Assembly: GCA_029863605.1 (NCBI GenBank)
Contig: JAOTVB010000009.1
Coordinates: 1 to 64,000 of the forward strand
Source of the DNA: Myxococcales bacterium
GTDB lineage: Bacteria > Myxococcota_A > Polyangia > Polyangiales > Houyiibacteriaceae
Length of the DNA stretch: 64,000 nucleotides
Direction of reading: 5' to 3'
Shown: positions 12,207 to 41,275 of the stretch, in pieces
How positions within the stretch are numbered: the stretch's first letter is position 1
Layout of the letters: each line of letters opens with the position of its first letter
Position numbers and translations under genes: made by a program
Notes under the pieces: model-generated
The model's input: only the letters and a program-made list of their open reading frames with translations
Databases searched by the model: none
What the model was told of the DNA's origin: nothing

Positions 12207-14507
12207 CTATCGACTCGTGGTGATCCGGACGATCACGTCTTTGGAGGCGGGGGTGAAGCTGCCATCGGCGTAGCGCTCAAGAGGGACGAGGACATTGGCT
12301 TCAGGGAAATACGCGCCGACGCAGCGTCGGGGGATCGGGTAGGGCACTGCGGTGAAGCGTGGCGCGATCCGGCGCTTACCACCGAAGTCGTTCTCGAGGT
12401 CGACCAAAGAACGCGGAGCGATACCTGCGTCGCGCATGTCGTCTTCGTTCATGAAGACCACCCGGCGGCCTCCGCGGATGCCGCGGTAGCGATCGTCTTC
12501 GCCATAGACCGTGGTGTTGTATTGGTCGTGGCTTCGCACAGTCATCATGCGGAAGGCGTCGTCGGGGATGGTCAGGTCGGGCGCGGGGTTGATCGTGAAC
12601 TGGGCTTTGCCGCTCGCGGTGTCGAACTTGCGCTCGCGATTGCTGTTGTAGAGATGAAAGCCGCCCGGCTCGAGCACCCGCGCGTTGAAGTTTTCGAAAC
12701 CCGGGATGGTCTTTTCGATCAGATCCCGGATGCGGTCGTAATCTTCGACGAGCCAGCACCAGCCGACGGGTGTCTCTGGGCCGAGCACTCCCTGCGCGAG
12801 CCGCGCGACGATGGCGGGCTCGCTGTATAGTTCCGGGTGTGCAGGCTTGAGGCTTCCTTGCGACGAATGGACCACGCCCATCGAGTTCTCGACGGTGACG
12901 AACTGCGCGCCGTAGGCCTGCAGGTCGACCTCGGATCGCGCCAGGCACGGCAAGATAATCGACCACCTGCCGTGAATCAGATGACCGCGGTTGAGCTTGG
13001 TGCTCACGTGGACGAGCATCTCGCAGTTTTGGAGCGCCCTGGCGCTTCGGTCGGTATCGGGGGTGGCTTGAAGGAAGTTCCCGCCCATCGCGCAAAACAC
13101 TTTGACGCGGCCCTCGAGCATGGCGTGCAAGGCTTCGACGGTGTTGAAGCCATGGTCGCGCGGCGGCTCGAAGTCGAACACGGTTTCGATTCGGTCGAGC
13201 AAAGCTTCCGAGGGCCTGTCGTGGATGCCCATCGTTCGGTCGCCTTGCACATTGCTATGGCCGCGAACCGGGCATGTGCCGGCGCCGGGTTTGCCGATGC
13301 TGCCTCGCATCAAAAGAAAGTTCACGATCTCGCGCACGTTTCCGACGCCGTTCTTGTGCTGAGTCAGACCCATAGCCCAGCAGACGATCGTTTTTCGGCT
13401 GCGTAGGATGATCTCGACGGCTTGGTCGAGCTTTTCTCGAGACACGCCACAGCTCGCGATCAACGAATCGAGGTCCTGCTCGGCAAGATGTGCCCGCAGG
13501 GCCTCGAAGCCCTCCGTGTGTTCCTGAATGAAGTGATCGTCGAGCGCATCGCCCGGGCTTTTGGCTTCGGCTTCGAGCAGCAGACACATCAACGCCTTGA
13601 GGAGCGCGACATCGCCGTTGATCTGCACCTGCAAGAAGAGGTCGGCGATGCGCGTGCTGGCCCCGAGAACTTCCATGGGCTTTTTCGGGTTCGAAAAACG
13701 CATCAGGCCGGCTTCGGGCAGCGGGTTCACCGCAATGATGCGGGCGCCGTTTCTCTTCGCTTTTTGAAGGGCGGTGAGCATGCGCGGGTGATTGGTTCCC
13801 GGGTTTTGCCCCATGATGATGATGGTGTCGGCTTGGTGAATGTCGTCGAGGGTGACCGAGCCCTTGCCGATGCCGACCGTCTCGCCGAGACCGACGCCGC
13901 TCGACTCGTGGCACATGTTGGAGCAGTCCGGGAGGTTGTTCGTTCCGAAGGCCCGCACGAACAACTGGTAGAGGAAGGCTGCCTCGTTGCTCGTCCGACC
14001 CGAGGTGTAGAACACCGCTTCGTGTGGAGAGTCGAGTGCCCCGAGGGCGCCTGCGATTCGCTGAAACGCTTCGTCGTAGTCGATCGGCTCGTAGAAGCGC
14101 GAGCCCGGACGCAGCATCAACGGGACCGTCAGGCGACCCTGCTGCCCAAGCCAGTAGTCCGATCGCCGCGCGAGCTCATCGATGCTGTAGCGCTGGAAGA
14201 ATTTCCAATCGAGACGCCGAGTGGTGGTCTCCCACGCTGCAGCCTTGGCGCCGTTTTCACAGAACTCGGTCAACGCCGCGCGGTCATCTGGGTCGGGCCA
14301 GGCGCACCCAGGGCAGTCGAAGCCGTCCTTTTGGTTCATTCGCGCGAGAATGCGCACCGCCGATGGCAACGAGTGCCCCTGCTGGTGCATGTGGGCGAAG
14401 GACGAGCGAATCGAAGAGAAACCAGCCGACCTGTCCTGCGGTGGTTCGATCTCGAGGTCGGCTGTGGCTTCCGGAGGCTTGGCGGGGCTGCGACTATCGC
14501 GCGACAT
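12207..14507 (-). CDS. FdhF/YdeP-family molybdopterin oxidoreductase
   Basis: 766-residue member of the bis-MGD molybdoenzyme superfamily, closest by motif to the YdeP type rather than to classical respiratory formate dehydrogenases. N-terminal cysteines C65-P-G-C68 and C83 (EFCENGAK) fit the YdeP pattern. Cys199-His200 (NMCHESSG) sits where E. coli FdhF has selenocysteine-His, so this is a cysteine enzyme. The C-terminal molybdopterin dinucleotide-binding domain ends near RSHDQYNTTVYGEDDRYRGIRGGRRVVFMN. No electron-transfer or membrane subunits are next to it. The start codon shares one base with the fdhD stop (TGATG), so the two are coupled. Substrate unknown. Confidence 0.9.
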   Translation of the reverse strand: MSRDSRSPAKPPEATADLEIEPPQDRSAGFSSIRSSFAHMHQQGHSLPSAVRILARMNQKDGFDCPGCAWPDPDDRAALTEFCENGAKAAAWETTTRRLDWKFFQRYSIDELARRSDYWLGQQGRLTVPLMLRPGSRFYEPIDYDEAFQRIAGALGALDSPHEAVFYTSGRTSNEAAFLYQLFVRAFGTNNLPDCSNMCHESSGVGLGETVGIGKGSVTLDDIHQADTIIIMGQNPGTNHPRMLTALQKAKRNGARIIAVNPLPEAGLMRFSNPKKPMEVLGASTRIADLFLQVQINGDVALLKALMCLLLEAEAKSPGDALDDHFIQEHTEGFEALRAHLAEQDLDSLIASCGVSREKLDQAVEIILRSRKTIVCWAMGLTQHKNGVGNVREIVNFLLMRGSIGKPGAGTCPVRGHSNVQGDRTMGIHDRPSEALLDRIETVFDFEPPRDHGFNTVEALHAMLEGRVKVFCAMGGNFLQATPDTDRSARALQNCEMLVHVSTKLNRGHLIHGRWSIILPCLARSEVDLQAYGAQFVTVENSMGVVHSSQGSLKPAHPELYSEPAIVARLAQGVLGPETPVGWCWLVEDYDRIRDLIEKTIPGFENFNARVLEPGGFHLYNSNRERKFDTASGKAQFTINPAPDLTIPDDAFRMMTVRSHDQYNTTVYGEDDRYRGIRGGRRVVFMNEDDMRDAGIAPRSLVDLENDFGGKRRIAPRFTAVPYPIPRRCVGAYFPEANVLVPLERYADGSFTPASKDVIVRITTSR

Positions 14508-15382
14508 CAGCCGGCCTCTACTTTGATGAAGTCGTGCGTCAGGTCTTCGAAGGCGATTCGTTCACTACGGGCGTAGACATTAAACCGGCTTTCGCGCGCA
14601 AACCCGACCAAGGTGAGGTCGAAGCGTTTGGCGGTCTCCACTGCTAGGCTCGAGGCGGCGCCGATCGCCACCAGCATGACAAAGCCAGCGCGCACGGTCT
14701 TTTGCACGAGCTCGAAGCTCGCTCGGCTGCTGACCACGACGAACGCATCGCTGGTGGTCTGGGGTGATTGCAGCCATGCCCCAACGAGCTTGTCGAGGGC
14801 GTTGTGTCGGCCGACGTCCTCACGATGCAGTAGAAGAGCCCCGTGGCGGTCGAAAAGGGCAGCGCTGTGCGTCCCGCCGGTATGTCGAAAAAAGGCCTGT
14901 GACCCTTCGAGCGAGGTGAGCGCTCGGCGAATTGCATCCGGATCGAGTGAGCCCTCTTCGACGACGACGGGAAAGCATCCTTCTTTTGAGAGCGCATCCA
15001 ACGTTCGGTCTCCGCACACCCCGCATGCGCTGGTGACCGTGAGGTTTCGTTCGAGCAATCGCGACGGGACGACGACATGATCGCGCAAGACGGCGCGGAC
15101 GACGTTGTCGGGGGTTTCGGACTGCGCGCAATGCCGGATACGGACCAGATCTTCCGGCCCGCTGATGACGCCTTCGCCATAGAGAAAGCCCGTGACCAGA
15201 TCAACGTCGTGCCCCGGCGTGCGCATCGTCATGGCGAGTGGAGTTTCGCAACGCGCGTGATCTTCCCCGTGCTCGAGGATGATCTGCAACGGCTCTTCGA
15301 CGGCCACGAGATCGGTGGTCTCCTCCCGTCGTTCATGCGTGATGCGCTCGACGTCGGTGGAAGTAACGGGCGTGCGGGCCAT
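14507..15382 (-). CDS. fdhD: Formate dehydrogenase accessory sulfurtransferase
   Basis: 291 residues. FdhD moves sulfur from a cysteine desulfurase to the molybdenum cofactor and is needed to activate FdhF-type enzymes. The catalytic CxxC motif is SACGVCGDR (Cys120, Cys123). The conserved segments PLAMTMRTPGHDVDLVTGFLYGEGVI and HREDVGRHNALDKLVG are present. ATG 15382 starts in front of the conserved domain; the frame stays open to 15742, but that part overlaps the ferredoxin and is low-complexity Arg/Pro-rich. It overlaps the molybdoenzyme gene by one base. Confidence 0.95.
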   Translation of the reverse strand: MARTPVTSTDVERITHERREETTDLVAVEEPLQIILEHGEDHARCETPLAMTMRTPGHDVDLVTGFLYGEGVISGPEDLVRIRHCAQSETPDNVVRAVLRDHVVVPSRLLERNLTVTSACGVCGDRTLDALSKEGCFPVVVEEGSLDPDAIRRALTSLEGSQAFFRHTGGTHSAALFDRHGALLLHREDVGRHNALDKLVGAWLQSPQTTSDAFVVVSSRASFELVQKTVRAGFVMLVAIGAASSLAVETAKRFDLTLVGFARESRFNVYARSERIAFEDLTHDFIKVEAG

Positions 15383-15414: not shown

Positions 15415-15440
15415 GAAAAAGGGGACTGTCCCCGTTTTTC
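15415..15440 (-). terminator. Motif copy forming a hairpin between ferredoxin and fdhD
   Basis: On the minus strand an A-run, then GGGGA-CAG-TCCCC, then five T directly after the ferredoxin stop codon. The A/T runs extend the stem on either side. It would end or attenuate the sterol reductase-ferredoxin transcript before fdhD. This is the most symmetric copy of the dispersed motif. Confidence 0.65.
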
Positions 15441-15630
15441 AGCCTTCGAGGGAGATCGCGCCGGTGGGGCAGTATTTGACGGCTTGCTCGACTTTGGCGC
15501 GGAGGTCTTCGGGGGGGTGATCCTGGAGGATGGTGAGGAAGCCTTTGTCGTCGACCTCGAAGACTCCGGGCGCTTCGCCCATGCAAACCGCGTGTCCTTG
15601 GCACAGATCGAAGTCGACTTTGATTTCCAT
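15439..15630 (-). CDS. Small [3Fe-4S]-type ferredoxin of the P450-partner class
   Basis: 63 residues, a one-electron carrier. Ligand pattern Cys10-QGH-AV-Cys16 and Cys54-Pro, i.e. CxxHxxC(x)nCP with His13 in place of the second Cys. This is the signature of ferredoxins that serve cytochromes P450 in actinobacteria and myxobacteria. ATG 15630 follows AGAGGA and begins 11 bases after the sterol reductase stop, so they form an operon. The pairing suggests electron supply to a sterol-modifying step (inference); no P450 gene is in the window. Confidence 0.9.
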   Translation of the reverse strand: MEIKVDFDLCQGHAVCMGEAPGVFEVDDKGFLTILQDHPPEDLRAKVEQAVKYCPTGAISLEG

Positions 15631-15641
15631 CAGGTTTCCTC

Positions 15642-16907
15642 TCAGTAGACGCCCGGAATGATGCGCCAGCGGACCTTTTCGCAATAGCGGTCCCAGTCGG
15701 CTCCGTATTTCGTCGAGCAGAACTTGTGGTCTCGCCGCTCACGATGGATGAGAAGGATCGCGAAATAGATCGGGTAGAAGTACGGCAACGCCGAATCGAA
15801 CAGACAAGGGAGCGACCACGAGAGCGCCATCAAAATATCGCCCACGTAGTTGAAGTGGCGTGACCAACCCCAAAACCCCGAGAGCAAGAGCTTGTTGCCC
15901 TGCGAAGTCTCCAAGTACTCCGCCTTCTTGCCCCAGATGCGGACGTTTTCCGGGTCGCCGCGGAACTTGTGCTTCTGCAGATTGACGGCGCGGAAGATGT
16001 AGAGACCCAAGAAGTTGATGGCGACGATGATCACCGCACCCCACCACGGCAACGTGTGGACATTGTCGATCAAGTAGTGAGCCTGCAGGGAATACGTCAT
16101 CGGCACCCACACCAAGTCGCCAAAGGCCAGCATGTAGCCGAAGTTCTCGTGCTTGATGTCCATGGTGGTGAGGATGGCTTCTTCGTTCCAGAAGTAGTCG
16201 AGGATGTAGAACATCTGGAACACCCAAACGAGGATCATCGACGTCGAAACGAAGCCGTACACTTGATACTGGACGTAGGCGAAAGAGGTGTTGAGCAGCA
16301 CCCAGAAGATCAGCCCCGGTCGTGCTTCGCAAAAGAGCTTGAGGTCGAAGCCATCAGGCCCCGGAGGGACGCGCGGGTTGTGGCCGGTGCCCATCCAGAA
16401 GTCGTGAATGAAGTTGCCGCTCAAGTGGCGCGCCTGGCCATGCCGTTTGCCGTACCAGTAGAGGTAGATGCTGAAGAGGAAGACGAAGATCGTCATCACG
16501 CTGATCAAGGCGCCGAACTCCGTGTAGAGCTCCGCGATCGAGAACAGGCCCGACCCGTGTAGCAAGCCTACGACGACCAATGTGACGATCAGCGAAAAGA
16601 ACCCGTTCATCCGGTAGGGCAATCGGGAGCCATCGAGGAGAGGAGCGCCGAGCACCGTTCTTCCGGGGGCATACTTCTGAAGCAGGGCCTGGAGCACGAG
16701 CCAGACGCCGTAGATGACCGCCGCGCGACCCGTCGGAATCATGGCCTCGAAGAAACGGCCCCAAAGAGCGTACGGCCCTGGGAGCACTTCGCCGTCGTTG
16801 TAGCGAACCGCAAAAAACAGATAGGCCGTGAAAATCGGCAATCCGAAGATCATGGCGAAGTTGCCCGGCACACCGCCGAACTCGAGCTTGCGCTTTTCCT
16901 CAGTCAT
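15642..16907 (-). CDS. ERG4/ERG24-family sterol reductase
   Basis: 421-residue polytopic membrane protein of the family that reduces sterol double bonds with NADPH (C14, C24(28) or C7 reductases; human TM7SF2 and DHCR7, yeast Erg24 and Erg4). Both family signatures are clear: GNFIHDFWMGTGHNPR (164-179) followed by FDLKLFCEARPGLI, and LLLSGFWGWSRHFNYVGD (from residue 340), then YFYPIYF and HRERRDHKFCSTKYGADWDRYC to a C-terminal RIIPGVY. Length matches the C14-reductase type. ATG 16907 removes a non-conserved upstream extension. It is the first gene of an operon with the ferredoxin. Which bond is reduced cannot be decided from sequence. Confidence 0.93.
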   Translation of the reverse strand: MTEEKRKLEFGGVPGNFAMIFGLPIFTAYLFFAVRYNDGEVLPGPYALWGRFFEAMIPTGRAAVIYGVWLVLQALLQKYAPGRTVLGAPLLDGSRLPYRMNGFFSLIVTLVVVGLLHGSGLFSIAELYTEFGALISVMTIFVFLFSIYLYWYGKRHGQARHLSGNFIHDFWMGTGHNPRVPPGPDGFDLKLFCEARPGLIFWVLLNTSFAYVQYQVYGFVSTSMILVWVFQMFYILDYFWNEEAILTTMDIKHENFGYMLAFGDLVWVPMTYSLQAHYLIDNVHTLPWWGAVIIVAINFLGLYIFRAVNLQKHKFRGDPENVRIWGKKAEYLETSQGNKLLLSGFWGWSRHFNYVGDILMALSWSLPCLFDSALPYFYPIYFAILLIHRERRDHKFCSTKYGADWDRYCEKVRWRIIPGVY

Positions 16908-18465: not shown

Positions 18466-18993
18466 ATGGTTGACGAGATGCGTCTTCGGCGGAAGGTCTG
18501 CGTGCTGGGTGCTTCGGGGGTAGGAAAGACGAGCCTCGTGCGGCGTTTCGTCGAAAAAAAGTTCGACGAGGACCATCAACGGACGATTGGCGTGGCGATT
18601 TCCAAAGGCACGCTCACGTTCGATGAGGTCAGCCTCGAGCTCATGCTTTGGGACTACGAAGGAGCCGAGCCCGGCTCCCAGTACAGTCGCTCATTCATCT
18701 CCGGTGCTTCGGGCTTGGTCTTCGTCGTAGATGTCACTAGACCGGAAACACTCGACCATCTCCTCGAGGCGCAGGTCAGAGGCCGGGGGTTCACGGGCCA
18801 TCGTCCATCGGTGCTGGTCGCCAACAAGATCGACATGACTGGTGACTTCGCGCTCACCGCGCAGCAACTCGACGAGGCTAGCAAGCAGGAGTGGTTCATC
18901 GTTCATGCGAGCGCGAAGTCGGGAGACAACGTCGACGACGCGTTCGCGAAGCTCGGCCAGATGATGCTCGACGTCAGAAAGAAATCGGCATGA
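18466..18993 (+). CDS. Ras/Rab-like small GTPase
   Basis: 175 residues, a compact stand-alone G domain. G1 GASGVGKT (15-22), G2 Thr40 in RTIGV, G3 DYEG (63-66), G4 NKID (120-123) and G5 SAK (149-151) are all present. The position equivalent to Ras Gln61 is Ala67 in DYEGAE, so intrinsic hydrolysis may be slow or may depend on a partner protein. No C-terminal prenylation Cys and no membrane segment. ATG 18466 lacks a clear ribosome-binding site; ATG 18478 is an alternative. The stop overlaps the SDR start as ATGA. Confidence 0.88.
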   Translation: MVDEMRLRRKVCVLGASGVGKTSLVRRFVEKKFDEDHQRTIGVAISKGTLTFDEVSLELMLWDYEGAEPGSQYSRSFISGASGLVFVVDVTRPETLDHLLEAQVRGRGFTGHRPSVLVANKIDMTGDFALTAQQLDEASKQEWFIVHASAKSGDNVDDAFAKLGQMMLDVRKKSA

Positions 18994-19802
18994 AACGATT
19001 CGAAGGAAAGACCGTGGTCGTGACCGGCGCGAGCGCGGGCATCGGCGAAAGCTCTGCGCGGAAGTTCGTCGCCGAGGGTGCACGGGTGGTGCTGGCCGCG
19101 CGGAGTGCCGAGAGCCTCCAGCGCCTGGCCGATGAGTTGGGCGGCGATTCTGCGCACGCCGTACCGACCGATATTGCTGACGTGGTTTCGTGTAAGCGTC
19201 TACTCGAAGAGGCGAAGATTCGATTTGGGCGCATCGACGTTCTCGTCAACAACGCCGGCTTCAACTCGCGCGGGCCCCTGAAGGACGTACCTGTCGAAGA
19301 CATGTTGCAGATCCTGCACGTCAACCTTCGCGGCCCGCTCCTCCTCACTCGGTTGGCCCTTCCAGACATGCTCGCGCAGGGGTCAGGCTCGATCGTCAAC
19401 GTGGCCTCGTTGGCGGGACGCATGCCGCTCGAGGATGAAGCGACTTACTCGGCAACCAAGTTCGGTCTTCGAGCGTTCTCGTTCGCTCTCGCCGATGAGC
19501 TCGAGGGCACCGACGTTCGTGTCTCGGTCGTGTCTCCGGGGCCAGTCGATACAGGTTTCATCATGGACTCGATCGACCAGACCCCCGACATCGTGTTTTC
19601 GCAGCCGATGAGCACCGCCGACGAGATCGCCGACTTGGTGCTGCAAAGCGCGGTCGATGGCGAGCGAGAACGCGTCAAACCCGCGGTCAGTGCTCGACTC
19701 GCGACCCTCGGCTACCTCTTTCCCGCCATGCGACGTGCGTTGAAGCCTCGCTTGGAGGCGAAGGGGCGCAAAGAGAAGGCGAAATATCGGGCACGAAGCT
19801 AA
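18990..19802 (+). CDS. Short-chain dehydrogenase/reductase (coupled to the GTPase)
   Basis: 270-residue NAD(P)-dependent oxidoreductase. TGASAGIG (12-19) binds the cofactor, NNAG is at 87-90, and the catalytic set is Ser140, Tyr153 and Lys157 (YSATK). Arg38 after the second strand (AARS) suggests NADPH preference. ATGA overlap with the GTPase gene shows coupled translation. Substrate is unknown; the C-terminal basic tail (RRALKPRLEAKGRKEKAKYRARS) may touch a membrane or partner. The stop overlaps the convergent SDR by four bases. Confidence 0.92.
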   Translation: MKRFEGKTVVVTGASAGIGESSARKFVAEGARVVLAARSAESLQRLADELGGDSAHAVPTDIADVVSCKRLLEEAKIRFGRIDVLVNNAGFNSRGPLKDVPVEDMLQILHVNLRGPLLLTRLALPDMLAQGSGSIVNVASLAGRMPLEDEATYSATKFGLRAFSFALADELEGTDVRVSVVSPGPVDTGFIMDSIDQTPDIVFSQPMSTADEIADLVLQSAVDGERERVKPAVSARLATLGYLFPAMRRALKPRLEAKGRKEKAKYRARS

Positions 19803-20713
19803 TCATCCTGCCGAATCGTCGACGGAAGCGATGCGCGCCGCGGTGACGGACCCCAGGCGGCGACTTTGGGGAGCATTTTGTAGAGGAGCCAGTGATACGT
19901 GCTCCGCGGGAGGATTCTTCGCAGTAATGAAAACGCGAATGCGTCGAAAGTCGCCGGCACGCGCAGCGGTGGGTTTCGCCGGCGCATCGTCTTGAGCACG
20001 ACTCGGGCGACGGAGTCGGGTGTGGCGCGGGAAGACTTCATGAGCCGCGCGATGAAGGGTGCCATGTTGACGTAGTGCTGGTGGTACGGGTCGCCGAGCT
20101 CTTGCTCGGACCGGCTGCTCCTCGGGGTGTAACGCACCTTTTGAAATCCTTCGGAATCGATGAATCCCGGTTGCAGGAGCGTGACTTTGATCCCCCAGGG
20201 GCGCACTTCGTACCAGAGTGATTCATGGGCGCCCTCGAGCGCGAACTTCGACGCGCTGTAGGCCGCCATCGTTGGCATCGCCATCATTCCACCGACCGAG
20301 CTCACCGTGATGATTCGGCCCGCGCCCTTCTGACGCATCCTCGGAAGCACGAGCCGAATCAGCTCCATCGGTGACCGAAAGTTCACATCCATCTGCGCAA
20401 TCCACTCGTCCTCGGCGACGTGCTCGACCACGGCACGATAGGTGATGCCGGCGTTGTTGATCAGGATGTCGATACCGCCCGAGTCGCGTTCGGCCTCTGC
20501 GACGATGGCGTTCCGTTGCTCTAAAGACGTGACGTCGAGCGGTCGAATCCGAACACGCTCGGACTCACGCACCTCGTGCATCTCGAAACGGGGAAGCGAG
20601 CTCTGGCGGGCCGTGAGATACACTCGATAGTTGGTCTTCATCAGTGCGCGCGCGATCGCCAAGCCGAGACCCGTGCTCGCCCCGGTGATCAACACTGTCT
20701 TACCCAGATTCAT
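19799..20713 (-). CDS. Short-chain dehydrogenase/reductase with C-terminal extension
   Basis: 304 residues. TGASTGLG cofactor motif near residues 10-17, NNAG, and YSASK active-site motif are present, with catalytic Ser in TVSSVGG. The extension after about residue 240 (FAFSLLRRILPRSTYHWLLYKMLP) is amphipathic or hydrophobic and may bind membrane. This resembles SDRs acting on lipids or sterols, but that is inference only. It follows the GH113-like gene on the opposite side of a 15-base gap with the reading order SDR after its own start at 20713, so it lies upstream of the glycosidase gene on the minus strand? No: it is transcribed after it (21895 to 20729, then 20713 to 19799), giving a two-gene operon. 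Confidence 0.88.
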   Translation of the reverse strand: MNLGKTVLITGASTGLGLAIARALMKTNYRVYLTARQSSLPRFEMHEVRESERVRIRPLDVTSLEQRNAIVAEAERDSGGIDILINNAGITYRAVVEHVAEDEWIAQMDVNFRSPMELIRLVLPRMRQKGAGRIITVSSVGGMMAMPTMAAYSASKFALEGAHESLWYEVRPWGIKVTLLQPGFIDSEGFQKVRYTPRSSRSEQELGDPYHQHYVNMAPFIARLMKSSRATPDSVARVVLKTMRRRNPPLRVPATFDAFAFSLLRRILPRSTYHWLLYKMLPKVAAWGPSPRRASLPSTIRQDD

Positions 20714-25171: not shown

Positions 25172-26785
25172 CTAGCGCCTAATGAGGGCTACGGCGCGTT
25201 CGCCTATCATCATGCTTGGAGCGTTCGTGTTTCCGCCGGTGACCTGCGGCATGATCGAAGCATCCGCCACGCGTAGTCCCTCGATGCCGCGCACCTTGAG
25301 GCGGGGGTCGACGACGGCCATCGGGTCGACGCCCATCTTGCAGGTGCCGACCGGATGGTAAACCGTCGTCGCGCGAAGCCTGATCTCGGCCGTGAGCTCC
25401 TCGTCGCTCGCCCGCTCATCGCCTGGCGTTAGCTCCTCGTCGAGATGGTCAGCAAGCTCCGGGTGCTCGCAGATCTCTCGACACTTCCGAATTCCGTCGA
25501 GGAACACTTGCAGGTCGTCGGGCGCTTCCAGGAAGTGAGGGTCGATGTGCGGTGCGGCATGCGGGTCGTTGGAGGTGAGCAAGAGCTCGCCGCGGCTCTT
25601 CGGATAGATGAGCGTGGGCATCACGCATAGGCAGTTGCCGGTATCGACGTGCGGCCGTTCCGGTCCGTCTTGGTTCGGGTCGGGATACCCCCAAGGCAGC
25701 GTGTGAATCTGGAGATTCGGAATCGGCTCGTGATCGCGGGTCTTGATGAACGCCCCAGCCTCGAAGACCGTCCGTCCGAACCAGCTGTTCCCGAACGTGT
25801 ATTCTTTGATCATTCCACCGAAGAAGTGGAACGGCGTCCCGCGGTGGAGGCTCGTCGGCGCGCGGTACACGAGCGGCACGAAGAGATGGTCGTGGAGGTT
25901 CTTACCGACTCCGGGGAGATCGTGGTTTACATCGATGTCTTGTTGACGAAGATGCTCGGCAGGGCCTACCCCAGAGAGCATCAGAATTTGCGGTGAGCCG
26001 ATCGCGCCGGCCGACAAGATTACCTCGCGGGCAGCGTTCGCCTTCAAGACCTTGCCGTTCTGCTCGTACTCGACGCCGGTGGCGCGCCCGTTCTCGATGA
26101 CGACGCGCCGCACGTGGGCACGCATTTCCAAGTTGAAATTGGGCCTTTCGAGGCTAGGTTGGATGTACCCTTCGGCGGTGCTGCTGCGGACGCCGTGGCT
26201 CGCCGACATGTGATAAGTGCTCGCGCAGTTCTGATTCGCGGCGTTGAAGTCGTCGAGCACCGGAATCCCGCAAACCGCTGCCGTCGCTCTCATGAACGCT
26301 TGCGATACCGGGCTGAGCTGGTCTTCAGGGTGACGTGTGACGCTGATCGGGCCACCAGCGCCGTGGTACTCGGTCTCGCCGTCTTCGTGGTTCTCGAGCT
26401 TCTTGTAGAAGGGCAGGATGTCGTCGAAGCCCCAACCTTCGCATCCTCGGGTGGCCCACCCATCGTAGTTTGCTTTGTTGCCGCGGAGGTAGAGCATGCC
26501 GTTGACGGAGCTCGATCCGCCGACCACCTTCCCGCGGGTGTACGGAATTCGCCGATCGTTCAGGTGCCGTTGGGGAACGGTCGTGAAGCCCCAATCGAAC
26601 TTCTTCTTGAGCTGCTTGACCTGCTGGACGAGGCTGATCATCCCCGGCTTCCGAACGAGCGTGGTGCGGTCGCTGCCCCCGGCTTCGAGGAGAAGCACGG
26701 TCACGTTTGGGTCCTCCGAAAGACGGCTGGCGATGATCGCTCCAGCAGACCCAGCCCCGATTACGACGTAGTCGTACTCCGCCAT
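25172..26785 (-). CDS. GMC-family FAD oxidoreductase (choline dehydrogenase-like)
   Basis: 537 residues. N-terminal FAD motif VIGAGSAGAIIASRLSED (7-24) and LLLEAGGSD, the GMC signature GKVVGGSSSVNGMLYLRG, and the C-terminal catalytic region YHPVGTCKMG with GNTNAPSMMIGERA. The enzyme oxidises an alcohol; the substrate is unknown. ATG 26785 follows GGAGAGG. A TetR-type palindrome sits directly upstream, so its expression is probably controlled separately from recD, which ends 79 bases before it on the same strand. Confidence 0.92.
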   Translation of the reverse strand: MAEYDYVVIGAGSAGAIIASRLSEDPNVTVLLLEAGGSDRTTLVRKPGMISLVQQVKQLKKKFDWGFTTVPQRHLNDRRIPYTRGKVVGGSSSVNGMLYLRGNKANYDGWATRGCEGWGFDDILPFYKKLENHEDGETEYHGAGGPISVTRHPEDQLSPVSQAFMRATAAVCGIPVLDDFNAANQNCASTYHMSASHGVRSSTAEGYIQPSLERPNFNLEMRAHVRRVVIENGRATGVEYEQNGKVLKANAAREVILSAGAIGSPQILMLSGVGPAEHLRQQDIDVNHDLPGVGKNLHDHLFVPLVYRAPTSLHRGTPFHFFGGMIKEYTFGNSWFGRTVFEAGAFIKTRDHEPIPNLQIHTLPWGYPDPNQDGPERPHVDTGNCLCVMPTLIYPKSRGELLLTSNDPHAAPHIDPHFLEAPDDLQVFLDGIRKCREICEHPELADHLDEELTPGDERASDEELTAEIRLRATTVYHPVGTCKMGVDPMAVVDPRLKVRGIEGLRVADASIMPQVTGGNTNAPSMMIGERAVALIRR

Positions 26786-37681: not shown

Positions 37682-40600
37682 ATGCAAAGAGCGATTGTGG
37701 GGTTAGACGTCGGCTCGACCACCGTAAAGGCAGTCGTCGTCCATCCCGAGACGAAAGAGATCCTCTGGGACGACTACCAGCGGCACCACACGAAGCAGGC
37801 AGAGTGCGTTCTCGACTTCATGGTGCGCATCGGCGACGTGCTGAAAGAGCTCGGTTGTAACGACACTCGCGTGTTCGTGACCGGGTCGGGAGCGGCACCC
37901 TTGGAAGAGCCGCTCGGTGCGAAATTCGTGCAGGAGGTCAACTCGGTGACCTTGGCGGTCGAAACGCTCCATCCGGATGCCGGGTCGGTCGTCGAGCTCG
38001 GCGGTCAGGACGCGAAGATCATCATCTTCAAGGAGAACGTACAAACCGGTGACAAGTCCGCGATCGCCTCGATGAACGACAAGTGCGCCTCGGGGACGGG
38101 CGCCACGATCGACAAATGCATGATCAAGGTGGGCATGCCCTCCGAGGAGACGCTCGGCCTGCACTTCAACGATCAAAGCCTTCACCACGTCGCTGCAAAG
38201 TGTGGCGTCTTCGCCGAAACAGACATCGTCAATTTAGTCAAAACGGGCATCCCGTCCGACGAGATCATGTGCTCGCTCGCCGACGCGATCGTCATGCAAA
38301 ACCTTTCGGTGCTCACGCGCGGCAATACGCTTCGGCACAAGGTGCTACTGCTCGGCGGTCCGAACACGTTTCTTCCGTTCCTTCAAGAGTGCTGGCGAAA
38401 ACGCATCCCGGAGACGTGGGACGAGCGCGGGTACGACTACCCGAAAGATGTCCCCATCGAAGAGCTCATTCCCGTGCCCGACAATGCCGCGTTGTATGCT
38501 GCATACGGCGCGGTCATGTACGGGATGCACGAGCCGTCAGACGTCGGTGTCTACAACGGCCTCGGCGGGCTCGAGCGATACATCAACGAAGGCCGCAAGG
38601 AGCGCCTCGGCGAAAGCGCGGGTCCGCCGCTTTCGAGCGGCCAGGCCGAGCTCGACAGATTCCTCGAAGCGTATCGGATCCCCCAATTCGCAGAGCCCGA
38701 GCTGCCTGCTGGGGGCACCGTGAAAGCCGTGATCGGCCTCGATGGGGGCAGCACCTCGTCCAAGGCCGTGCTGTTGGGCGAGGACGGCGAAGTCTTGATG
38801 AAGTCGTATGCGCTTTCGAAGGGCAATCCCATCCAAGACGCCAAAGAGCTCCTCGAGGACCTGCGCACCCGCGTTCGTGCCCGGGGAGCCGAGCTCGACA
38901 TTCTCGGCTTCGGAGCGACGGGCTATGCGGCCGATGTGCTCGAAGAGTGCGTGTGTGCGGACGTCAACGTCGTCGAAACCGTCGCCCACATGATGAGTGC
39001 GACACATTACTTTGGTGACATCGACGTCATCTGCGACATCGGTGGCCAAGACATCAAAGTCCTCTTCATGGAAAACGGGGACATCAAGACCTTCAAGCTG
39101 TCGAACCAGTGCTCGGCAGGCAACGGGATGTTGCTTCAGGCGATGGCCGACCAGTTTGGCCTTCCCGTTCAGGAGTACGCCGAGAACGCCTTCCAAGCGG
39201 AGCTCGCGCCCAAGTTCAGTTACGGTTGTGCGGTCTTCCTCGACACCGATCGCGTCAACTTTCAAAAGGAGGGGTTCGGCAAAGAAGAGCTCCTGGCGGG
39301 ACTCGCGCAAGTGCTTCCGAAGAACGTTTGGCAGTACGTCGTCGGAGTGCCGCGCATGGCGGCGCTCGGGCGAAAGTTCGTCCTCCAGGGCGGTACGCAA
39401 TACAACTTGGCGGCCGTCAAGGCGCAGGTCGACTACATCAACGAACGAGTGCCCAACGCGGAGGTGTTCGTCCATCCGCATAGCGGTGAGGCAGGCGCGA
39501 TCGGGGCGGCGATGGAGACATTGCGCGTCGTGAAGCGACGGGGGCACTCCACTTTCATCGGTCTGGATGCCGCGATCGACCTCAAATACGAGACGAAGAA
39601 CGACGAGACCACGACCTGCCATTTCTGTGCCAACGAATGCTCACGCACCTTCATCGACGCGTTCCGCCCCGACGGGACGACCAGTCGCTACATAAGCGGC
39701 TTCTCCTGTGAGAAGGGCATGGTCGAATCGAAAGATGCGATGGAAGACCTCGTCAAAGAGCGTCGAAAGATCTTGAAAGAGTTTCCGAACCTCGTGACCT
39801 ATGAGGGGCTCAAGGCGTTCAAGCGAATTTCTGGCGTTCAATCACTGCCCGAAGCCGGAACGGAGATCGACGACGTCAAGGTCGATCGCAAGTTTTTCGG
39901 ATCGATCGAACGAACGAAATACCGGCGCGGCTTCCGGCGGTCATCCGAGGCGGCTGCAGAGAAGCGGGCGAGTTGGCGTGTCGGCATTCCGCGCGTCTTG
40001 AATATGTACTCGACCGCACCCTTCTTCCGAACGTACCTCGAGGTGCTTGGCGTCCGGCCGAAGAACATCGTCTTCAGCGACCCGAGCTCCGAGGAGATGT
40101 TTGCTGAAGGCGGCAAGTACGGCTCGGTCGACCCTTGCTATCCGTCGAAGGTTGCGCAGGCGCACTTCCACCAGCTGTTCTTCCACAAGCACGCGAAGAC
40201 TCCGCTCGACGCGATTTTCTTCCCGATCTTGACCCACGTTCCCTCGTTCGTGACCGATGCCGTCGACTACGCGAGCTGCCCGATAGTGGCCGGCACGCCC
40301 GATGTCATGAAAGCCGCCTTCACAAAGGAGCAAGACTACTTCGAGACCCGTGGGATCACCTACATGGCGCCGGCGTTCAGCTTCGCCGAGCCGACACTCC
40401 TGCAACGCAGCATGTTCGAGGCGTTCCGCGACGCCCTCGAAATAACCGAAGACGAGAGCGACTTCGCGGTCACCGAGGGGCTCGCGGCGCTCGAGCGGTT
40501 CGACGAGGATGTGCAAGCAAAGGGCAAGGCCATCCTAGACCAGGTCGAATACGACAACAAGATCGCGATCCTGGTCGTCGGTCGGCAGTACCACCTCGAT

Positions 40601-41275
40601 CCTGGCCTTCACCACAACATCCCCGACGAGTTTCAAGTGCTGGGTTATCCAATCCTGAGTATCCGCTCGATCCCGAAAGATCCGGAATGGCTCGGTCGAT
40701 TCTACGAAGATGGTGAAGACGCACTCAGCATCAACGACGTTTGGCCCGAAAACTACTCTGCTGCTTCGGCGCAAAAGGTCTGGGCCGTGAAGTTTGCCGC
40801 GCGTCATCCCAACGTTGCCATCCTCGACCTGAGCAGCTTCAAGTGCGGGCACGACGCTCCGACGTACGGGATCATCGACAGCATCGTCTCGAGCAGTGGC
40901 GTGCCGGCGGCTTCCCTTCACGACATCGACGCCAACAAACCTGGCGGGTCGATCAAGATCCGCGTCAAGACATATGCTCACTCGCTCCGGCTCCGTGAAG
41001 AGCACCTCGAGGACGTCGCGGCACGTAAGGCCGAGCTCGAGCGCCGCATCGATGAAAAGCGTCTGGAGCTTCTCCGCATGAAGCAGGCGCAGTTGTCAGA
41101 GCACCGTCGCGCGGACCTGCAGCTCGAGCGGCAGATCAAGGAGCTCGCGCAGAAAGTAATGAATTATCGCGTCGAGGCTGCGAAGTCCGCAGAGGACGAG
41201 GTCGTAGCAGAGATGTCGGAGAGTTTGATTCGTCTCGGTAAGAAAACCAAGGACGGCAATATCGTCCGAGTCTAA
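37682..41275 (+). CDS. Double-domain 2-hydroxyacyl-CoA dehydratase activase with DUF2229
   Basis: 1,197 residues. Activases of this BadF/HgdC family use ATP to push an electron onto a radical dehydratase or reductase. Two ASKHA ATPase domains are in tandem. The first has VGLDVGSTTVKAV, VELGGQDAKII and the cluster cysteines in NDKCASGTG and AAKCGVFAE. The second has GLDGGSTSSKAV, CDIGGQDIKVLF, NQCSAGNG and YGCAVFLDTD. A CxxCxxxC motif follows (TTCHFCANEC), then a DUF2229-like region (RVGIPRVLNMYSTAPFFRTYLEVLG). A charged coiled coil lies near the C-terminus (about 1110-1165). ATG 37682 removes an unsupported upstream extension. The partner gene starts 11 bases after the stop. Confidence 0.93.
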   Translation: MQRAIVGLDVGSTTVKAVVVHPETKEILWDDYQRHHTKQAECVLDFMVRIGDVLKELGCNDTRVFVTGSGAAPLEEPLGAKFVQEVNSVTLAVETLHPDAGSVVELGGQDAKIIIFKENVQTGDKSAIASMNDKCASGTGATIDKCMIKVGMPSEETLGLHFNDQSLHHVAAKCGVFAETDIVNLVKTGIPSDEIMCSLADAIVMQNLSVLTRGNTLRHKVLLLGGPNTFLPFLQECWRKRIPETWDERGYDYPKDVPIEELIPVPDNAALYAAYGAVMYGMHEPSDVGVYNGLGGLERYINEGRKERLGESAGPPLSSGQAELDRFLEAYRIPQFAEPELPAGGTVKAVIGLDGGSTSSKAVLLGEDGEVLMKSYALSKGNPIQDAKELLEDLRTRVRARGAELDILGFGATGYAADVLEECVCADVNVVETVAHMMSATHYFGDIDVICDIGGQDIKVLFMENGDIKTFKLSNQCSAGNGMLLQAMADQFGLPVQEYAENAFQAELAPKFSYGCAVFLDTDRVNFQKEGFGKEELLAGLAQVLPKNVWQYVVGVPRMAALGRKFVLQGGTQYNLAAVKAQVDYINERVPNAEVFVHPHSGEAGAIGAAMETLRVVKRRGHSTFIGLDAAIDLKYETKNDETTTCHFCANECSRTFIDAFRPDGTTSRYISGFSCEKGMVESKDAMEDLVKERRKILKEFPNLVTYEGLKAFKRISGVQSLPEAGTEIDDVKVDRKFFGSIERTKYRRGFRRSSEAAAEKRASWRVGIPRVLNMYSTAPFFRTYLEVLGVRPKNIVFSDPSSEEMFAEGGKYGSVDPCYPSKVAQAHFHQLFFHKHAKTPLDAIFFPILTHVPSFVTDAVDYASCPIVAGTPDVMKAAFTKEQDYFETRGITYMAPAFSFAEPTLLQRSMFEAFRDALEITEDESDFAVTEGLAALERFDEDVQAKGKAILDQVEYDNKIAILVVGRQYHLDPGLHHNIPDEFQVLGYPILSIRSIPKDPEWLGRFYEDGEDALSINDVWPENYSAASAQKVWAVKFAARHPNVAILDLSSFKCGHDAPTYGIIDSIVSSSGVPAASLHDIDANKPGGSIKIRVKTYAHSLRLREEHLEDVAARKAELERRIDEKRLELLRMKQAQLSEHRRADLQLERQIKELAQKVMNYRVEAAKSAEDEVVAEMSESLIRLGKKTKDGNIVRV

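Follow-up and report, generated by a model that had tools for sequence, protein, structure and literature searches.

A CYP51-linked, ERG24-type reductase in a Myxococcota lineage: a candidate C14-processing module for the catabolism of exogenous sterols

The reactions of CYP51 and Delta14-sterol reductases are established; the ERG4/ERG24 family also contains C7 and C24 reductases, and Myxococcota are known for making sterols. A solved bacterial member of the family, MaSR1 of Methylotuvimicrobium alcaliphilum (4quv), is a Delta14-sterol reductase whose host makes sterols. Tyr241 and Asp363 of MaSR1 have been named as catalytic (PMC12489058), and Asn359 and Arg395 have been placed in its NADPH pocket (PMC4951196). 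In 2026, a soluble and unrelated enzyme, 8,14-Bsr, was shown to act on the CYP51 product in a methanotroph; one mycobacterial and one myxobacterial homologue were active too, CYP51, ferredoxin and Bsr were frequently co-localised, and methanotrophs that bear MaSR1 were found to keep 8,14-Bsr as well (PMC13277303). Coxiella does not synthesise sterols, yet it has sterol reductases of the ERG24 family (PMC8787468, among others). Aerobic steroid catabolism, in turn, was confined to Actinobacteria and Proteobacteria in a genome survey of 2016 (PMC4810484), and none of the other phyla listed in a metagenome survey of 2018 yielded hsaC (PMC5790920). A word search of the two surveys returned no mention of myxobacteria or Deltaproteobacteria.

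The window reductase and its relatives

The window, that is, the whole stretch of DNA analysed, is the 64-kb start of contig C33 in the genome under study (G000), which measures 4.2 Mb in 54 contigs and has a completeness rating of 100%; gene absences reported for this genome are based on profile searches. A protein of 421 amino acids is encoded on the minus strand of the window at 15642..16907, with its ATG start at 16907 and the end of its stop codon at 15642. The Pfam profile PF01222 (ERG4_ERG24) spans the whole protein (E 1.2e-122, residues 6-421 against profile positions 3-432 of 432), and MaSR1 is its top solved relative (E 5e-128, 51% identity over 399 columns). The catalytic pair of MaSR1 corresponds to Y234 and D357 in the window protein, and the NADPH-contact residues Asn359 and Arg395 correspond to N353 and R389. 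The family match, the similarity to 4quv and the active-site residues point to a Delta14-sterol reductase of the ERG24 (MaSR1) type, so that the C14 specificity proposed in a preliminary description of this DNA is supported at the level of sequence. The same description had spoken of a full-length sterol reductase with both family signatures. The length and signature 2 stand as described, and signature 1 matches except for an H before NPR, a position where the pattern presumably has L or M. The protein had also been considered rare for a bacterium, which does not hold locally, as a match to the ERG4/ERG24 family is found in 34 of 57 related genomes. Matches to DUF1295 and to isoprenylcysteine methyltransferase were dismissed as weak C-terminal similarity.

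When the family was examined in a phylogenetic tree built without verified C7 or C24 reductases, the window reductase fell in one 48-row clade with MaSR1 (support 90/65); the deep branches of the tree are weakly supported. Against its own reading, the preliminary description had set a genome devoid of sterol genes together with a protein placed outside the sterol reductases. What was found is a protein that falls, with modest support, in the clade of MaSR1 and a genome that carries CYP51. The difference from M. alcaliphilum lies in the host: MaSR1 and the window reductase have identical catalytic and NADPH residues, but G000 has neither a cyclase nor an epoxidase.

Besides the window gene, G000 harbors another full-length member of the ERG4/ERG24 family (L038:5722-7101, equivalent to G000:C28:178724-180031) and one weak fragment. 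The second reductase belongs to a different clade, shared with sequences of Coxiellaceae, Legionellaceae and Chlamydiae (100/100), and has His at the position of the NADPH-contact residue Asn359 of MaSR1. The resemblance to Coxiella, a bacterium with ERG24-family reductases that makes no sterols, is limited in two ways: the Coxiellaceae proteins group with the second reductase rather than with the window gene, and G000 additionally has CYP51 and catabolic genes. A shorter, divergent ERG24-like protein with long tree branches (L198-L206) was detected in several relatives with large genomes, most of which bear a cyclase.

Downstream of the reductase, the minus strand encodes FdhD, a sulfurtransferase for a molybdoenzyme (14507..15382; FdhD-NarQ E 3e-65, TIGR00129 over its cut-off), and a molybdopterin oxidoreductase of the FdhF/YdeP family (12207..14507; TIGR01701 916 bits, cut-off 582). 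The order reductase, FdhD, YdeP (the latter two at 12207-15382) is kept in nearly all congeners.

A ferredoxin linked to CYP51

Between the reductase and FdhD, a ferredoxin of 63 amino acids is encoded at 15439..15630, also on the minus strand and, as originally noted, 11 bases after the reductase. Its CxxHxxC motif reads CQGHAVC...CP (Fer4_15 E 4.7e-14), and the solved structures most similar to it are those of a mycobacterial ferredoxin (from a ferredoxin-P450 construct, 8amp) and of the ferredoxin domain in the Methylococcus CYP51 fusion (6mcw). Within the genus, protein identity of the reductase is 82-96%, and the ferredoxin is likewise conserved as a protein in related genomes; therefore, neither gene is a chance open reading frame.

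The CYP51 gene of G000, for which a search elsewhere in the genome had been recommended, lies on a contig other than that of the window (C11:28421-29827). Compared with solved structures, its product is closest to Methylococcus CYP51 (E 2.9e-136), with mycobacterial CYP51 next. Of the 19 genomes of the genus, 17 contain a single clear orthologue of this ferredoxin (65-100% identity, other hits at most 47%), which in all 17 is found with CYP51 or with the window-type reductase. Linkage to CYP51 is observed in 14 congeners (at a distance of about 7 kb in G015, and on the same short contig in G018), while the position behind the reductase is found in G000, G017 and G009 only. Because neither G000 nor G017 has this ferredoxin gene in its CYP51 cluster, the gene appears to have been relocated to its place behind the reductase. 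In G021, which represents a sister genus, four genes form a run on a single strand, each overlapping the next or separated from it by a few bases: CYP51, a membrane protein gene, ferredoxin and reductase, in this order. FdhD and YdeP are missing from this locus. The G021 operon is the strongest evidence that CYP51, ferredoxin and reductase may act together. Given this single operon and the linkage of the orthologues (to CYP51 in 14 congeners, to the reductase in three), the assignment of the window ferredoxin to CYP51 can be considered well supported, as can the earlier view that it is of the type that feeds P450 enzymes such as CYP51.

8,14-Bsr orthologues in the lineage

In G017, the sister species of G000, the small gene behind CYP51 is an 8,14-Bsr orthologue with 62-65% identity to the methanotroph copies. 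Pfam, NCBIfam and PDB searches all failed to identify it, and its recognition was possible only by means of the published residues and the methanotroph genomes. The six pocket residues discussed in PMC13277303 (Y37, Y43, Y78, Y80, D133 and D136), located by manual count on the G017 sequence, are all present with an offset of +1 and with their spacing kept. The counterpart in G000 (L059:11806-12404) presents a frame change midway, near G000:C11:30107-30113, which may be a consensus error.

The state of 8,14-Bsr was tallied in the 15 genomes in which a window-type reductase occurs and the CYP51 locus is assembled. The gene is intact in G017, G009, G004 and G015; it is broken or truncated in G000, G012 and G016, being cut short in G012 and broken in G016 in a manner other than in G000; and it is absent from G001, G002, G003, G005, G006, G010, G011 and G013. 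Although absences can in general be inflated by genome incompleteness, the assemblies of these eight extend past CYP51 and contain its downstream genes, with no Bsr among them. Altogether, 8,14-Bsr is broken or absent in 11 of the 15 genomes. In G007, 8,14-Bsr is present and a match to the ERG4/ERG24 family is absent. Redundancy between the reductase and 8,14-Bsr predicts repeated decay of the latter where the former is present, and this is the pattern seen; the comparison of these loci suggests that the window-type reductase replaced 8,14-Bsr. The stages of such a displacement are found within the lineage (both genes intact, Bsr broken, Bsr gone), which would provide a natural series in which one Delta14 reductase gives way to another of unrelated origin.

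With the cassette of CYP51, ferredoxin and 8,14-Bsr known from Mycobacteriales and methanotrophs (PMC13277303), G000 shares the type of CYP51, the kind of ferredoxin and the Bsr orthologue behind CYP51. It differs in that an ERG24-type membrane reductase is added, Bsr is broken, and the ferredoxin appears to have moved behind the reductase.

Origin and fate of the sterol substrate

The preliminary description had placed the two genes either in a bacterial sterol pathway or in the modification of prey sterols. The former is not borne out for G000, where profile searches detected no match to squalene or oxidosqualene cyclase and none to squalene epoxidase. Five congeners do have a cyclase match, which exceeds the cut-off in four of them, and in G017 cyclase and epoxidase lie within a cluster of about 10 kb. 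In G000, the genes flanking this cluster are direct neighbors, separated by about 100 bases (C28:151213-151314), with a DNA identity of about 89%. Such an empty site within a 677-kb contig makes it unlikely that a cyclase was missed through assembly gaps; the cluster was, it seems, either lost in G000 or gained in G017. Cyclase matches in congeners and the location of CYP51 beside the cyclase in G012 and G002 favor the idea that the window genes take part in de novo sterol biosynthesis. For the assembly at hand, however, that idea is refuted by the absence of cyclase and epoxidase from a genome rated 100% complete and by the clean empty site, and we give it next to no credence.

The neighbors of the cyclase cluster differ among congeners (L057/L058, L068, L070), and other genes flank it in G010 and G012; this suggests that the cluster is mobile or was acquired repeatedly. 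Both G012 and G002 have two CYP51 genes, one adjoining the cyclase and the other at the catabolic locus (L068/L069 versus L071/L168), as if synthesis and breakdown had one each.

Homologues of steroid catabolism genes are found in G000 at several sites. The CYP51 cluster includes an HsaC-like extradiol dioxygenase, a KshA-type Rieske protein, an SDR and a GMC oxidoreductase, to which the clusters of congeners add an HsaD-like hydrolase. The dioxygenase, located 3 kb from CYP51, is the sole HsaC-like match of the genome; it reaches 240 bits (curated cut-off 450) and is BphC-like too. The sterol C4 demethylase SdmA was rejected as an identity for the Rieske protein (53 bits against a cut-off of 600), which is nearer to KshA. 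Another locus (approximately C22:96-123 kb) encodes IpdA-like (E 1.7e-97 to Mycobacterium tuberculosis IpdA, 6co6), KshA-like (E 1.7e-61 to 4qdc), HsaA-like (418 bits, below the curated cut-off of 450) and HsaD-like proteins, together with an HsaEFG-like trio of hydratase, acetaldehyde dehydrogenase and aldolase, a lipid-transfer protein that exceeds its cut-off, and proteins read as acyl-CoA dehydrogenases. A KstD-like protein is encoded on C28 (E 3.2e-140 to 7p18). Judged by these homologies, the set of steroid catabolism genes in G000 may be near-complete. It resembles the 9,10-seco pathway of Actinobacteria and Proteobacteria (PMC4810484, PMC5790920) in its KstD-, KshA-, HsaA-, HsaD-, HsaEFG- and IpdAB-like genes; the differences are the Myxococcota host, the HsaC-like gene set apart beside CYP51, and HsaA and HsaC scores under the curated cut-offs. 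HsaC-like matches are found in 19 of 19 genomes of the genus as well as in G021, G026 and G029, and are absent or weak in the ten cyclase-bearing family members outside the genus (Fisher p 0.011, with kin treated as independent).

The explanation that we favor, and consider probable, is that the reductase and the ferredoxin belong to a module for C14 demethylation and reduction that feeds the catabolism of exogenous sterols and has taken over from 8,14-Bsr. The ferredoxin would donate electrons to the CYP51 encoded elsewhere in G000; CYP51 would remove the 14-alpha-methyl group of the sterol, leaving a Delta8,14 diene; and the Delta14 bond of the diene would then be reduced with NADPH by the window enzyme, an ERG24-type protein in the role formerly held by the unrelated 8,14-Bsr. 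Since G000 is devoid of sterol-making genes, the substrate would come from outside, be it detritus, prey, algae, fungi or sterol-making bacteria, and the module would prepare 14-methyl sterols for the 9,10-seco genes. As in the Mycobacteriales, sterols would be degraded and none made. Family assignment, active-site residues, gene linkage, the lack of cyclase and epoxidase, and the catabolic homologues are the sequence-based observations from which we infer substrate, electron transfer and catabolic purpose. In the five congeners where the module and a cyclase match occur together, the module may also serve synthesis. A wider and more tentative proposal is that a Myxococcota lineage eats 14-methyl sterols by way of CYP51, ferredoxin and ERG24 followed by the 9,10-seco route, a eukaryote-type membrane Delta14 reductase displacing the soluble 8,14-Bsr.

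Several observations count against a catabolic module. The reductase adjoins FdhD and YdeP instead of catabolic genes, the HsaA- and HsaC-like proteins stay under curated cut-offs, deep tree support for the grouping with MaSR1 is modest (90/65), and G026 shows that steroid catabolism does not require the module, as it has HsaC but neither CYP51 nor a sterol reductase. One may consider that exogenous sterols are remodelled for the membrane or signalling of the cell itself, steroid catabolism being a separate ability. The distance between the reductase locus and the catabolic cluster would fit, as would the second sterol reductase, from a clade common to Coxiellaceae, Legionellaceae and Chlamydiae. 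What argues against this possibility, which we regard as rather unlikely, is that CYP51 shares a cluster with HsaC-like and KshA-type genes and that congeners keep this arrangement. Of the earlier suggestion that prey sterols are modified, the use of exogenous sterols is retained, and the genomic context favors catabolism over modification alone.

Less probable still is that the reductase acts on a Delta7 or Delta24 bond, independently of CYP51. The existence of C7 and C24 reductases in the family and the weak deep branches of the tree leave some room for it, but it is at odds with the identity to MaSR1 and the active-site match, the operon of G021, and the decay of 8,14-Bsr where a window-type reductase is present. 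As for the conserved order of reductase, FdhD and YdeP across the genus, it might tie reductase and ferredoxin to the molybdoenzyme in a pathway unrelated to sterols. The G021 locus, however, contains CYP51 and ferredoxin beside the reductase and neither of the other two genes, and the ferredoxin sits with CYP51 in most congeners; we therefore find such a pathway very improbable. If C14 processing is kept beside catabolism where synthesis is missing, as the favored catabolic module would have it, it becomes testable whether modules of this kind consume lanosterol-type sterols, a question that extends to the mycobacterial modules.

Other genes of the window deserve mention. A GMC oxidoreductase and two SDR dehydrogenases are encoded near the reductase (25172-26785 and 18990-20713), and at 37682-41275 a large protein joins a BadF/BcrAD-type CoA enzyme activase to DUF2229, a protein type usually associated with anaerobic pathways.
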